Shown here: positions 21,901 to 60,448 of the stretch, piece by piece
Layout of the letters: each line of letters opens with the position of its first letter
Position numbering within the stretch: position 1 is the first letter of the stretch
Source of the DNA: Lasiosphaeris hirsuta
Lineage: Eukaryota > Ascomycota > Sordariomycetes > Sordariales > Lasiosphaeriaceae
Reading direction: 5' to 3'
Assembly (NCBI GenBank): GCA_030549175.1
Contig: JAUKUA010000002.1
Span: 4,092,001 to 4,156,000, forward strand
Length of the DNA: 64,000 nucleotides
Position numbers and translations under genes: made by a program
Notes under the pieces: model-generated
Told to the model about the DNA's origin: nothing
Databases searched by the model: none
What the model saw: the letters and a program-made list of their open reading frames with translations, nothing else

Positions 21901-22148
21901 GGACCGAACTGATGATCCACAGATGTCTTGGGACTTGGAGTAGTATTTACTCCATGAGTACTCTGCCTCAAAACCTCTCTCATTATAAATACAACTACAG
22001 GGCGTGATTTCTTGCAACTTAAAGGCGTGATGCTGCATCACTTGCACCTCTTGTGATGACCAAATTCCCAGTGATGACAAACATAAGCTTGATTGATGTG
22101 CCTTCAGTTGCTCAAGCCGGGAGATCGAATTGCCGACGAGCGGAATAT

Positions 22149-22417
22149 CCAACCTTTGTTTGTTAGCGCGGGACTTCTTTGTTAAAGCTCGTGGACATCT
22201 CAAATGGCATATTTGGTATCCCATAAGGCCTCTCCAGTGTGGGAAAGGCCTCTCAAAGTACCAATTGTACCATTTGAGATGCTATAAAGGCCCTATTGAA
22301 AACCAAATATGCCTTTCGAAAGGCTTGAATGCCATTTTTCATCGATAATGGCCCTGTTCGGGCTTCAATATCCTTCTTGGCGGGAGTGTTCCGCGCTAAC
22401 AAACAGACCATGGTTGG
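22149..22417. mobile_element. MITE-like inverted-repeat element, copy A
   Basis: About 269 bp. The left end is CCAACC followed by TTTGTTTGTTAGCGCGGGAC. The right end read backwards is CCAACC, ATGG, TCTGTTTGTTAGCGCGGAAC, so the two ends match with one 4-5 base gap. It has no coding capacity. Inside are two perfect 12-nt inverted pairs (22196-22207 with 22270-22281, and 22206-22217 with 22302-22313) and a direct repeat AAGGCCTCTC at 22225 and 22245. It shares the core TATGCCTTTCGAA with copy C and a related one with copy B. Target-site duplication is unclear. It sits between the RidA remnant and the ferric reductase promoter. Confidence 0.8.
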
Positions 22418-22982
22418 GGTGTAAGTCGTTGGCCCGGGTTTGAGGAACGGCCCGCCATGGGCTGCCAGCCTGGCAGAGCGTGGAGCGAGCTGAGCGGTCA
22501 GGCAAGGGCCGCCGGCTGAGAGCCAATCAAGCTTCTTCGCACCTGCTGGGGGTAATGGGTACCTATATTACAGGGTTCAAGAGTTAAGAGAACCACAGTA
22601 ACCCCGTGGAGAATAACATATTGCACTAACAGCAATTATTGATTCTGGCGGTATCCATTTCCACTCGAAGGCGTAGCCCGGATCCCACGCCCCAAGACGC
22701 GACCGGAAATTCAACGGTGAGCTCAACTGCTGACATTGTGGGCGTTTTGGACACTTTGACCAGTCTGGGCTTTGAGCATCTCTTGTCAAGTTCACCATCC
22801 CGCCAATTCTCAAGGGCAGCACCGCAGCCAGGCCCGTTGAGACAGCATCACTTCTTGCCAGCTGTGCGCTGAGCAATCCAGGACGCCCTATTGGTCGACA
22901 ATTGTTGACCTGCCTCGACGCTCTCTCGAGCTTCAACTCTTGTTCCCGACCTTCGCTGCGCTTAGTGTTTACACGTGACACG
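22418..22982. promoter_or_regulatory. Ferric reductase upstream region
   Basis: Separates the inverted-repeat element from the ferric reductase start and should contain its promoter. No coding signal. I looked for GATA-type sites of the iron regulator SRE/SreA but cannot claim a convincing cluster. Confidence 0.4.
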
Positions 22983-43387: not shown

Positions 43388-43669
43388 TACAATCCAGTCC
43401 TGGTTTGTTAGCGCGTGACACTCTCCCTAAGAGAGGTACTAAAGCCCCGATAAAGCCTTTGCAGCACAAGAAAAGGCATCTTTGGTATTTTAGAAGGCCT
43501 TTACAGGATGTAATGAAACCCCAAATGTGGTATTTACAGCATAAGGAAAGGCGCTCGAGAATACCAAACATATCTCTTTCGAAAGCCTTTCTGGACAGGG
43601 CTTCAATGTCTTTTTTGGGGCCTTGAGGGGGTGGTCACACGCTAACAAACAAGCCAGTGTTGGATTGTA
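43388..43669. mobile_element. MITE-like inverted-repeat element, copy B (best preserved ends)
   Basis: 282 bp. Left end: TACAATCCAG, TCCTGG, then TTTGTTAGCGCGTGAC. Right end read backwards: TACAATCCAA, CACTGG, CTTG, then TTTGTTAGCGTGTGAC. The arms of about 32 and 36 bases match except for one 4-base gap and a few changes. Outermost TA at each end would fit a TA target duplication (Tc1/mariner-like), but that is inference. The interior has TATCTCTTTCGAAAG, related to the core of copies A and C, and no open frame of interest. It begins about 65 bp downstream of the RMD1-like stop codon and may overlap its 3' UTR. Confidence 0.85.
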
Positions 43670-43735: not shown

Positions 43736-45058
43736 CTACTTGCCTCCGCTGTTCACCTGCGAACTCGGTGGAGAGGCTGTGATCTTGCGCAGTTCTGCGA
43801 GTAGTTCCTCCTGAAACACGTCGTACTTCTCCATGTACAACCTCCGAAGCTCAAAGCAAACCTCGATGGAGATCAAAATGATGATAATCCACTCGAGCCG
43901 TGTGCTGTGCGCCTCGCTCGAATTCTTCTCGCTGATATTGAGGACGTCCTGAGCTACGCTGACAACCTCCTGCGCATACGTCATCTTGTCGTTGAGCGTC
44001 TTGATGCGCACTCCAACGTCAAGGGCCTTGCCAATCTTGGCATAGTAGGTCTCTAGCTTCTCTTCGCTATCCCAGAAGATGTCGGGCAGGGCATCTGTGA
44101 GGTCGTTGTAGTGATTCAACTGGCTACGAAGATTCAGCAGCTCGCCTGTCTTCTGCAGTATCAAGTCGCGCGACAGAGGCGACTGTAGGCCTCGTGACAG
44201 CTGATCGGGGATGTATCGGGTGCTCTCAAGGTAGCGGGTGAGCGAGCTCTCAAGTACGGCGAGCTTGGTACTCCTGGCCAGGCCAGACGAGAAGGCGATC
44301 TTGGCTAGCGTCGTGTCCATGCGGTCGCCGGCCTCAGCCTCGCGCCGTGTGCCCAGCACCACAACATCGCCGCTCACGCGGCTCTGCTCTTGCTCGGGGT
44401 CCTCTACGTAATCGAGGTCCTCAACTTCCTTGTCGGCGACAAAGGGGCTCTCGGCGGCCGGCAATAGGTACTGCGTAGCCAGTGTGTTGACGATGTTGCT
44501 CGGCAGCGCCCACGTCACAACGGTTCCAGAGGGGAATACGAATATGTCGCCGTGGTTCAGGCCCCGCGCGTGCACCACCTCAGTTGGCTCAAAGCCGGTA
44601 GCGTCGGGGTCGAGCTTGAAGTTATGCTGAGCGAGGATTGATGCGACGGCGTCCATGTCGAAGGACTCGGCCACGCAGATGGCGCTGATGGTGGAGCTAC
44701 CATCTGCTGTGTCTATCGATGTGGGCGTTTTGGAAGGAACTCCCTTCTGGGCGACGATAGCTACACGATGCAGCGAGTTCTTCAGCGACGGCTTGCGCTT
44801 GTTCTGCGCCGATCGGGCCTCATTGCTGATTTTGGTGTCGGTCGCTGCCTTGCCCTTGGCAGTGCCAGTGCCGTTGCTTGCCGGAAGGTTGCGGGAGGGC
44901 GGCAGGGAGCCGTCTGGCATCAGAAAGACATTGGACGAGAAAAAGTTGCGGCGACGAGGAAGATAGGCCGGCGCAGTTCGGTGGAAGTGGCGGAGGGCGA
45001 GGGGTCGTGTGAAGCCGCGAGATGCTGGGCCCAGCGATGGCAGCAGAGACTTCATCAT
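43736..45058 (-). CDS. RMD1/RMND1-type DUF155 mitochondrial protein (Mrx10-like)
   Basis: Single-exon gene, 440 aa. The N-terminus (MMKSLLPSLGPASRGFTRPLALRHFHR, continuing basic to RRRNFF) is a good mitochondrial presequence. The DUF155 domain follows, with AICVAESFDMDAVASIL, HGDIFVFPSGTVVTWALP and IAFSSGLARSTKLAVLES, then a helical region and one C-terminal membrane helix (RLEWIIIILISIEVCFELRRL). Yeast Mrx10 and human RMND1 are inner-membrane proteins tied to mitochondrial translation; Rmd1/Rmd8 are the extramitochondrial paralogues. The presequence favours the Mrx10/RMND1 branch. I start at the ATG at 45058; a longer frame has only a TTG start. The gene is bracketed by two same-orientation inverted-repeat elements. 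Confidence 0.9.
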   Translation of the reverse strand: MMKSLLPSLGPASRGFTRPLALRHFHRTAPAYLPRRRNFFSSNVFLMPDGSLPPSRNLPASNGTGTAKGKAATDTKISNEARSAQNKRKPSLKNSLHRVAIVAQKGVPSKTPTSIDTADGSSTISAICVAESFDMDAVASILAQHNFKLDPDATGFEPTEVVHARGLNHGDIFVFPSGTVVTWALPSNIVNTLATQYLLPAAESPFVADKEVEDLDYVEDPEQEQSRVSGDVVVLGTRREAEAGDRMDTTLAKIAFSSGLARSTKLAVLESSLTRYLESTRYIPDQLSRGLQSPLSRDLILQKTGELLNLRSQLNHYNDLTDALPDIFWDSEEKLETYYAKIGKALDVGVRIKTLNDKMTYAQEVVSVAQDVLNISEKNSSEAHSTRLEWIIIILISIEVCFELRRLYMEKYDVFQEELLAELRKITASPPSSQVNSGGK

Positions 45059-45440
45059 GTCGATGCCATTTATTGCAAGTTGTTGCACGACCGGCGGCTG
45101 TGCCTTTTTGGCAAGACTCGTAGATGTGGACGTGCACGCTTTTCGTAGTGGGTTCAACCCCGTTCAATCGCAAATTTGGTCAACCCCATCCGCGTTATAT
45201 CGCGAACTTAATTTTGGTCAGCCCCATCTGCTCGTTCAATCACAGGGTCCAATCGTACTTGACTACTAATGACGTATCCCCTGAGCCCTTCCTTACATCA
45301 CACCCAGCTCATTCGTTTTGTCAACCACAACCTCATGTCTTTGGGGTAACTATTTAGCTGCTTCCGAACTTCATTTTTATATACATACATACCAATGGTC
45401 TTTAAAATACCAAATACGCCTTCCTCGATGCTCTAGATGC
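45059..45440. other. RMD1-like upstream region with an element fragment
   Basis: Holds the RMD1-like promoter. A near-direct repeat, TTTGGTCAACCCCATC and TTTGGTCAGCCCCATC, lies at about 45175 and 45213. From about 45400 to 45440 the sequence AAAATACCAAATACGCCTT resembles the interior of element copy A (AAAACCAAATATGCCTT at 22299), suggesting a broken older copy next to copy C. Confidence 0.45.
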
Positions 45441-45661
45441 TACAATACCGACAACTTAACCCTAGCTTGTCTGTTCGCGCGGGACTCTCAGAGAAGGAAA
45501 GGCCTTCCTTATTGATGCTAGGAAGGCCTTGATCAAATCCATATATGCCTTTCGAAATGCCAGAATGCCGTTTTTTTACGATGGAACGGCCTTGTCGAGG
45601 CTTCACATCTCTCTTGGCTAGAGTAATTCGGCGCTAATAAATAAACCAGGGTTGGAGTGTG
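45441..45661. mobile_element. MITE-like inverted-repeat element, copy C
   Basis: About 221 bp. Left end: AACCCTAGCTTGTCTGTTCG then CGCGGGAC. Right end read backwards: CACACTCCAACCCTGG, TTTATTTATTAGCGC. Ends are more diverged than in copy B but recognisable, and the core TATGCCTTTCGAAATGCC is nearly identical to copy A. Shorter than A and B, so it may carry an internal deletion. It ends about 360 bp before the TIP20 start, inside the divergent RMD1-like/TIP20 promoter region. The exact left boundary is uncertain. Confidence 0.7.
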
Positions 45662-46019
45662 CACTCCAGCCACTTGTCTTCAAACCTGCTCGGATGCATC
45701 GCAATACCACTCATATAGCTAAGGCGAGAAGGGCTCTGGGACTGGGAATATGTAAAAGGGCTTTAGGATATCGGGTGTATCTCCTCAAAACAACAGAAGT
45801 CGTTTCTGATATTGACGATGGATTTTTTAGTGCTTCAACATCTCTTCAAATGTTATCCGAGAACAAATATATCACTAACAAGGATTGGTTGGGAGCTTGG
45901 ACCGCTTTATGGGTACGTACCAACCCCACAACGGCACCGTCACCGTCAACCACGATGGAGCCAATCTGACACTGGACTGCACACATGCCCGCCCTGACCT
46001 GGGAGGAAGCAAGAGCAAG
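45662..46019. promoter_or_regulatory. TIP20 upstream region
   Basis: 358 bp between element copy C and the chosen TIP20 start; it must contain the core promoter and leader unless the element itself supplies part of it. The frame of TIP20 stays open upstream, with an in-frame ATG at 45909. Confidence 0.4.
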
Positions 46020-48476
46020 ATGGAGGCAACCGCCGTGGACCACGATATCCGCGTCGAGGACTATCTCGACGACAAGCTGCAGTCGACAGCAGACTTTGAG
46101 CACTTGGACGATTTACTGAGCAACGTCGAGTACCAGCGCAGCCAGCTGCAGTCCCAGCTCGACGATGCCACGCGCGAGCTAGAGGAAGCCCGCCGCTCGG
46201 CTGGCGACCGCCAGGCCGCCCTCGCCCGCCAGATTGACGACTTCGAGGAGCTGCAGCACAGCATCGATGTCCGTCTCCAGATCGTCGCCGCATCTGACGC
46301 CCCCGACGAGGCCATTCGCCGGCTCGAACAGCCCATGAAGAGGCTGCACCGGGTCGACCTCGCCCTTCGCTACCTAGTTCTCCTGCAAGATGTCGAGAGA
46401 CTGCGCCAGGCCGCCCGCGCCAGTTTACCACAGAGCCCCAAAGCTGCGCTCGAGCCATACGCCAAGTTGAAGCAACTATCCCTACAGCTCAAACACCTCC
46501 AGGGCCCGGCCGATGACGCTGCCGTTCATCTCGTCGCATATGTTGAATCGGTGACCAAGACGCTGTGGGATGAGATGAAAAAGACCATGTCGGATGAGCT
46601 GGAAGCTGTCCTGGTCAAGCGCGGCTGGCCGAGTATTGACCCAGACTCCGACGCGGACGACGAATGGCTCTTGTGCTTTGAGAAGCTGGTCGACCTACAA
46701 GTCCCAGAAGTTCTCTATTCTCCAGGCGTCGTTGCCCTCCTTCCCGTGGACGTCATGGCACAAATTTTTGTTAAAGAGTTCCGATTTCACTTTATGAGCG
46801 ACAAGGCCACGAGCAGCCCACAGGCGATTGGCGCCCACTGCTTCCCTTGGTTCGTGGCTCTGATTGAGAAGTGGGAAGACTTCTTTCGAGACAACTTCGG
46901 GCCTGCTCTCGCCACAAAGTTCGGTCACACGGCCGTCTCCCGCAAGATGGTCTACATGGACCCCGTCTGTGCGTTCATAACCTCGATGCTACCCATCATG
47001 AGGGAGAAGATTGCATCTGTCATGGCGGAGGCGGTTAATGACCCTGCTCTCCTAAGCAGCCTCATGGTACAACTCATGACGTTCGATGAGAATATCAGGT
47101 CGGGCTTCAATTATGATGGCGGAGACGCGGAAAATGGTTGGGGTGGCTTGACCTCTGAAGTGCTGAGTGTGCACTTTGACACATGGCTACAGGCCGAGAA
47201 GAGGTTCGCACTAGAGAGATACCAGACAATCATGACCGCCCAAGATGCCAATAACATCGACTATGATTTCGCCGGCCCTGGCAAGACCAAGCCCACATAC
47301 GCTGCCTCCCGCGTTACAGACCTGCTCAGATCGGTCACAGGGCAGTATGAGGGGATCAAGAGGTTCTCCCACAAGCTGCGCTTTCTTATAGACATCCAGC
47401 TTAGCATTCTGGATGAATACCATGACCAACTGAGGGGAAGGCTCGAAACGTACCTCGGTCTTACCTCGACTGTCGGCAGAGTATTTGGCGTGACGGAGGA
47501 GCAGCTGGCTGCCCTAGAAGGGACAGGGGCCCTTGAGATACTCTGTAAGGTGTACGGCAGCACAGACCACATCGTCAATATCCTAAGGGATTGGAGCAAC
47601 GAAGAGGTAAGAAGTACATCTACTTTTCACCCGGGGCGTCGCTGACCTTCGGAATCAGTTTTTCGTGACACTCTGGGAGCGGCTCCAGACCAGGGCCAAA
47701 GCAAGCGAAGACCAGAGCAACCTAGCCGGAGGGATGAGCTACGAGCAGGTAAAAGATCGCACATCTGCGGCCGTGGGAACTGAAGAGGATGACGGTGTCC
47801 TCTTTGACGAGACGATTGCGGCGTACAGTGCTCGGAGGAAACGCGCCGAGGAGTTCCTTTCTGAGGCTCTGATTAAAGACCACCGCAAAGCTTTCAAAGC
47901 GTACCTCCAGCGACCACAGTGGAGCACCATCGCTGAAGACCCTTCCCCGGCTGACGCGTACCAGCTCGCGGTTACCTCCGAGCTGGACGAGCCCTTGAGG
48001 GTGAGAAAGCATCTTCAGTTTTTGGGTGTCTGGAACATCTGCTAATCCGAGGACAGATTCTCAAGCGAGATTTCGATTTTCTCTCTCGAACTCTCGGGAC
48101 GGCTGTGTTCCGCCGTGTCTGGCGCTCGGCGCTCGAGAGGCTAAACAATATGCTTTGGAGCGATGTGATGATGAGCCACAAGTTTACGGCGTCAGGTGCT
48201 GCCCAGTTCCTGCAGGACTTGCGGGCCATCTCGTCTCTTATCGAGCGTTACATTCCCGATGGCTCAAGCTCACTTGGTAGTCTGAGTGATGCGCTGCAGC
48301 TCCTCAATCTCCCCGTAGAAGCCGGGCAAGGCGCGGTCTCGCTCAGGCAGATCACCGATATGGTCTTTACTGACAACACGGAGGCCAAAAAGGCCATGGA
48401 TCAGCTGGAAATCGATACCTTGACCCCTGCTAACGCCAGGCAGATTTTGCAGCGCAGGGTTGAAAATGCCGAGTAA
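46020..48476 (+). CDS. TIP20: Dsl1-complex tethering subunit TIP20 / RINT-1 family
   Basis: Subunit of the ER-bound Dsl1 tether that captures COPI vesicles returning from the Golgi. Exons 46020-47606, 47659-48000 and 48057-48476 give 2349 nt, 782 aa. An N-terminal coiled coil (FEHLDDLLSNVEYQRSQLQS onward, about 25-85) is followed by an all-helical rod typical of CATCHR tethers. RINT-1/TIP20 signatures include FVKEFRFHFMSDKATSS, HCFPWFVALIEKWEDFF and, near the end, LWSDVMMSHKFTASGAAQFLQDL. Length fits the family (700-800 aa). The ATG at 46020 begins MEATAVDHDIRVEDYL; an in-frame ATG at 45909 would add 37 residues of unclear merit. It is convergent with the YMC1-like gene 241 bp away. Confidence 0.92.
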
Positions 48477-60424: not shown

Positions 60425-60448
60425 AAAAAAAAAAAAAAAAAAAAAAAA
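60425..60448. repeat. 24-nt poly(A) run
   Basis: Uninterrupted A24. It is not preceded by an obvious retroposed gene copy or LINE 3' end, so I do not read it as a retroposon tail. It is a likely length-variable site. Confidence 0.9.

Follow-up and report, generated by a model that had tools for sequence, protein, structure and literature searches.

Stowaway-type MITEs of plants belong with Tc1/mariner, insert at TA, form hairpins, carry no coding sequence and are dispersed. The closest described fungal system is mimp of Fusarium, reported as a non-coding MITE of 180-220 bp with ends of about 27 bp that resemble those of a Tc1-like element; mimp1 is reported to be mobilised by impalaE, and some strains lack an intact partner (PMC3599309, PMC5579170). 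From Sclerotinia, Tc1-mariner MITEs of 481-813 bp are on record (PMC4188875). Here we describe short inverted-repeat elements of Lasiosphaeris hirsuta, starting from the window, by which we mean the whole stretch of 64,000 nucleotides that was analysed (contig C7, 4092001-4156000, in an assembly of 44.4 Mb and 14 contigs). Positions in the window are counted from its first base, those elsewhere are given as contig:position, and numbers with L denote loci taken from the genome.

Three copies in the window

A sequence-only reading of the window had proposed that three stretches, here copies A, B and C (Table 1), form one repeat family, and this part of it stands. The core TTTGTTTGTTAGCGCG, with up to two mismatches allowed, has four matches in the window against 0.03 expected, far above chance, and they fall at the left and right ends of copies A and B. 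When 48 elements recovered from the genome were compared with the window (E ≤1e-3), the only matches were the stretches of A, B and C and a poly-A run at 60425.

Table 1. Family copies and their terminal inverted repeats, in window positions.
Feature	Position	Strand	Remarks
MITE copy A	22143..22423	+	281 bp; flanking TA kept at right, left TA = GA; end fit
Copy A, left terminal inverted repeat	22143..22178	+	
Copy A, right terminal inverted repeat	22388..22423	-	
MITE copy B	43388..43669	.	282 bp; TA on either side; full-length imperfect palindrome
Copy B, left terminal inverted repeat	43388..43419	+	without one 4-base unit
Copy B, right terminal inverted repeat	43634..43669	-	
MITE copy C	45450..45661 (or from 45441)	+	212 bp; nearer to A than to B, orientation that of A
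Copy C, right terminal inverted repeat	45626..45661	-	

Several particulars of that reading need amendment. The bounds it gave for copy B are exact, those it gave for copy A (22149-22417) are replaced by the end fit, and copy C starts at 45450 by the same fit, or at 45441 as first proposed if TACAATACC there is a disturbed outer end. The core ascribed to all copies is found at the ends of A and B and not in C, where each end departs from it by three mismatches (by eye), and of the interior motif said to be shared, A and C alone have the exact form TATGCCTTTCGAA, B carrying TATCTCTTTCGAA instead. The ends of copy B do differ by one 4-base gap but are not otherwise identical, as they are also separated by four substitutions (28 of 32 aligned bases the same, by eye). 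Copies A and C share one orientation and, at 72% in 181 aligned columns, resemble each other more than either resembles B. A shared orientation for B is not established, because B is palindromic (62% in 308 columns when aligned with its reverse), aligns to A in both orientations and aligns best to C in reverse.

As originally stated, the copies have no coding capacity of note, their longest open stretches being 67, 82 and 61 codons. Copy B folds as one long hairpin (MFE -109.7 kcal/mol, z -7.2), as does copy A (z -8.3); the folding of copy C is weaker (z -2.7), two of 200 shuffles being as good. Copies B and C flank a DUF155 gene (43736-45157, minus strand), the near edge of B lying 66 bases beyond its stop codon and C lying between this gene and a RINT1/TIP1 gene (45885-47645). 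The DUF155 protein is 88% identical to its homologue in Lasiosphaeria hispida, and its next named matches come from other Sordariales.

Dispersal and insertion at TA

Many further copies lie elsewhere in the genome, and the similarity of the ends exceeds chance both by the core count in the window and by reversed controls. The family ends read TACAATCCAACCCTGGTTTGTTTGTTAGCGCGNGAC; their 17-base core GTTTGTTAGCGCGNGAC (up to one mismatch) occurs at 161 genome sites and a 32-base end (up to three mismatches) at 126, and either pattern, when reversed, occurs at none. Among the matches listed (100 of the 161 core sites and 100 of the 126 full-end sites), the sites fall on nine of the 14 contigs; a degenerate core pattern has 91 exact sites, all of them listed. 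Genome searches with copy B and copy A gave at least 88 and at least 71 matches, which are lower bounds because only part of the candidates was scored (40 of 84 and 40 of 61, respectively), and in which one copy may yield several matches.

From loci L001-L072 we paired 48 two-ended elements of 108-449 bp (median 257), 47 of which contributed the 94 ends of the end alignment, the 108-bp pair at C10:2934780 being excluded for its weak ends (scores 15 and 10). Since the patterns detect 15 of 46 and 18 of 46 ends of elements that were found by similarity, the family would comprise very roughly 250 or 160 copies. On that estimate the occurrence of three copies in 64 kb has P 0.006 or 0.002, values that are no test because the window was picked out by those copies. 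At L057:2525-2870, another family end starts about 16 bases past the right end of the element C8:5346380-5346678.

The inverted ends are about 36 bp long. The consensus of the 94 ends is TACAATCCAACCCTGGTTTGTTTGTTAGCGCGGGAC, with its leading T conserved at 87% and the A at 91%, and in the six bases outside these ends the commonest base reaches just 28-38%. In a fit that included TA, 38 of the 48 elements have TA at the left, 38 at the right and 32 at both ends. Because the consensus used for this first placing itself included TA, the ends were refitted without it, upon which TA stands before 72 of 96 ends, with 30 of the 48 elements having it on both sides; in the window at large, TA has a frequency of 3.6%. 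At the next two bases outward no pair is comparably enriched, the commonest being present at 13 of 96 ends.

A nested pair of elements provides a view of the insertion itself. The element C1:6865954-6866197 sits in the end of an older family copy at a depth of 12-13 bases (L022, about 1433-1948), and when it is removed with one TA kept, the outer copy aligns gap-free over the junction to other copies. The copy restored in this way matches C10:2889428-2889710 at 73% over 285 columns, and its median score against the 94 ends is 15 with one TA, compared with 12 with none and 13 with two. The nested pair points directly to insertion with duplication of TA, in a single case and within one genome. 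Joined flanks of the 31 further elements with TA at both ends gave no empty paralogous site. All 62 flank matches returned, in a search that passes over simple repeats and very common words, lie at their own places, so the tested sites are in single-copy DNA as far as this search shows.

The TA target of Tc1/mariner type, which had been suggested from copy B only, can therefore be extended to the family as a whole, on the 30 of 48 elements with TA at both ends and the nested insertion. The elements are short (below about 500 bp), have inverted ends and many dispersed copies, and in the window copies are without transposase or coding capacity; the copies, the ends and the TA boundary together support the initial description of them as MITE-like and non-autonomous.

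Tc1-like DD34E elements and their ends

Transposase matches in the genome number 123 for DDE_1 and 71 for DDE_3, in lists that overlap, with some places in both. Many contain TAG and TAA stops, and at least one stop was seen in 117 of the 123 DDE_1 matches (by eye). Most of the stops are TAG or TAA and few are TGA, a bias compatible with repeat-induced point mutation; some may stem from introns that were read through.

Two elements with a DDE_3 match carry an open frame: L081 (C10:924202-925687, L081:403-1888; 1486 bp), with 377 amino acids from an ATG, and L082 (C12:664660-666150, L082:461-1951; 1491 bp), with 361 from the TTG at which the frame is listed. Their DNA is 98% identical. The L081 protein has D191, D278 and E313, and the 34 residues that separate D278 from E313 give the DD34E spacing. 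Among relatives of solved structure, Sleeping Beauty ranks first (E 1.8e-15), and homologues are named from Podospora, Cladorrhinum, Triangularia and others. A third element, L083 (C8:100790-102236, L083:491-1937), is a decayed relative, with 44-57% protein identity over three stretches and the same kind of end. Among the ten transposase loci and twelve relatives that were read for ends, GTTAGCG-type ends occur only at L081, L082 and L083, and two additional places of transposase relatives have none. The loci L088, L089, L090 and L092 form another Tc1-like group, about 1.36-1.38 kb long, with inverted ends CAAGCGGKTGMMAAAATAA and 26-27% identity to the L081 protein.

The ends of the DD34E elements are TACACCTCCCCCGGGGTAATGAATGTTAGCGTGGAAC (right, identical in L081 and L082) and TACACCTCCGC[CA][GA]GGGTAATAAAAGTTA[GA]CG. 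The MITE end was represented by three variants, and against each of them none of 5000 shuffles, made with the first two bases held fixed, equalled the right end shared by L081 and L082 (37 identical bases). For the left end of L081, 0 to 7 of 5000 shuffles were as good, and for the ends of L083, between 5 and 112 were; L082's left end, disturbed by a small insertion, was left out of the comparison. As controls, one end from each of ten other transposons scored at chance, with at least 539 of 5000 shuffles as good; three of these ten begin with TA, and the rest were cut at the start of the inverted repeat, their exact boundary being unsettled. Beyond the ends, the MITEs and the DD34E elements share short matches only (E 0.006 to 0.05) and have nothing clear in common. 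We read the likeness of the two kinds of end as pointing to a shared lineage of ends, which falls short of proving that L081 or L082 moved the MITEs.

The DD34E-type end, with up to three mismatches, has six sites in the genome, five of them at L081, L082 and L083; at this stringency no MITEs bearing that end were therefore seen. The lone sixth site, C11:1646977-1647007, has no partner at the stringency used. Among the sites listed and the 16 of 25 places of DD34E relatives that were read, no element that encodes a transposase was found to have the ends of the MITEs themselves. Four places considered as autonomous candidates were set aside: at C10:4788900-4793700 and C8:384500-390700 the open frames, when read, resemble ordinary genes between separate MITE ends; at C10:789200-794400 the element around a DDE_1 match has different ends; and C8:2384300-2385200 is a 449-bp MITE copy. 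In viral contigs, eight stretches fit a peptide pattern but none codes for a transposase relative; these contigs hold no exact match to the MITE end pattern.

Across 195 pairs of MITEs aligned over more than 60% of the shorter member, identity has a median of 74% and a maximum of 90%. Set against the 98% of L081 and L082, this divergence indicates that the family is old, and it looks inactive. C-to-T changes at CpA in the MITE ends (0.086) are not in excess of A-to-G changes (0.088); the ends thus do not visibly bear the signature usual for repeat-induced point mutation, although heavily mutated ends would escape the search. C-to-T reaches 0.247 at CpT and, for the other strand, 0.149 at GpG, mostly where two end variants coexist. 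By the standard of Neurospora, MITEs would be too short for repeat-induced point mutation.

Origin of the family and its relation to known systems

Our preferred reading, which we hold to be very probable, is that these are old, dispersed, non-coding MITEs with Tc1/mariner-type insertion at TA, moved by a DD34E transposase, the family's own autonomous form having been lost, decayed or not found. In this model, the MITEs would have arisen by internal deletion or end capture from a parent element of the DD34E lineage. A DD34E transposase would bind the MITE ends, cut the element out and join it into a TA elsewhere. Amplification presumably ended long ago, and the autonomous form of the parent lineage may since have been lost or have decayed, or may not have been found here.

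A different enzyme could have done this work. DDE_1 is the most numerous transposase family seen (123 matches, against 71 for DDE_3), and by eye a DDE_1 match lies within about 2 kb of three MITE-type end sites among those listed (C1:409644, C10:789369 and C10:4419855), as might be expected had the MITEs belonged to a pogo/Fot1-type lineage and come to resemble the DD34E ends by convergence. However, a hand estimate puts the chance expectation at about two such pairs, at the one of the three places that was read (C10:789200-794400) the DDE_1 match belongs to an element whose 49-base inverted arms are unlike the MITE end, and four DDE_1-type ends (L073-L076) score at chance against the MITE end, so that we consider this origin very improbable. 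It is somewhat easier to imagine, though still unlikely, that L081 and L082 or their recent ancestors moved the MITEs in trans despite their different ends, in place of a lost cognate element: they alone among the loci read combine an open frame with the shared inner block GTTAGCGYGGAAC and the same start, and their 98% identity speaks for recent movement. Yet the MITE copies, with their median of 74% and best pair of 90%, are much older than L081 and L082, and no intermediate end type was seen, the DD34E-type end being confined to the three elements and the lone site.

The strong folding of copies A and B would also suit elements that are not mobile at all, such as a conserved structural or regulatory hairpin family, introns or RNA genes. 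The sharp TA boundary, the flanks found only at their own places for 31 of 31 sites and the element inside an element form an insertion pattern, and window positions 20000-48000 hold nothing that passes the gathering score of any Rfam family; we find a non-mobile origin scarcely credible. Within the preferred reading of old MITEs moved by a DD34E transposase, it is possible, if doubtful, that the MITEs are relicts that outlived their own transposon, perhaps spared repeat-induced point mutation by their size, and that a sister DD34E lineage with two open-frame copies might move them. Larger transposase genes in the same genome are full of stop codons.

These results add to the record of a Sordariales genome one MITE family, together with a lineage of Tc1-like DD34E elements whose ends match in part. 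The two form a natural pair on which to test how far transposon ends may drift before recognition by the transposase stops, and the same pair asks whether small size protects MITEs from repeat-induced mutation. For annotation, the family accounts for hairpins without coding capacity that lie next to genes, the DUF155 gene of the window among them.

A literature search with the letters of the ends returned nothing related, by title. In the literature on fungal MITEs and Sordariales transposons we found no like family from Sordariales by title or start of abstract, and we claim absence from print no further than that. The published mimp end pattern (PMC5579170) matches none of the 94 ends, nothing in loci L001-L096 and nothing in the window. 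With that pattern absent and the kind already described, the family looks new, and its kind is well known and comparable with mimp/impala.

The comparison with Stowaway, by description and not by sequence, holds for the TA target, the hairpins, the dispersal and the lack of coding, and differs in the plant hosts of the latter. Fungal Tc1-like DD34E transposons are the likely source of the enzyme; they encode a transposase, whereas the MITEs do not, and the ends of the two are alike in shared blocks only. The family departs from mimp in length (108-449 bp compared with 180-220 bp) and in its ends (about 36 bp compared with about 27 bp), and, unlike mimp1 with impalaE, for which mobilisation is reported, it is known from sequence alone. 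It shares with mimp/impala a fungal host, short non-coding elements and inverted ends that, in the present family in part, resemble those of a Tc1/mariner element.
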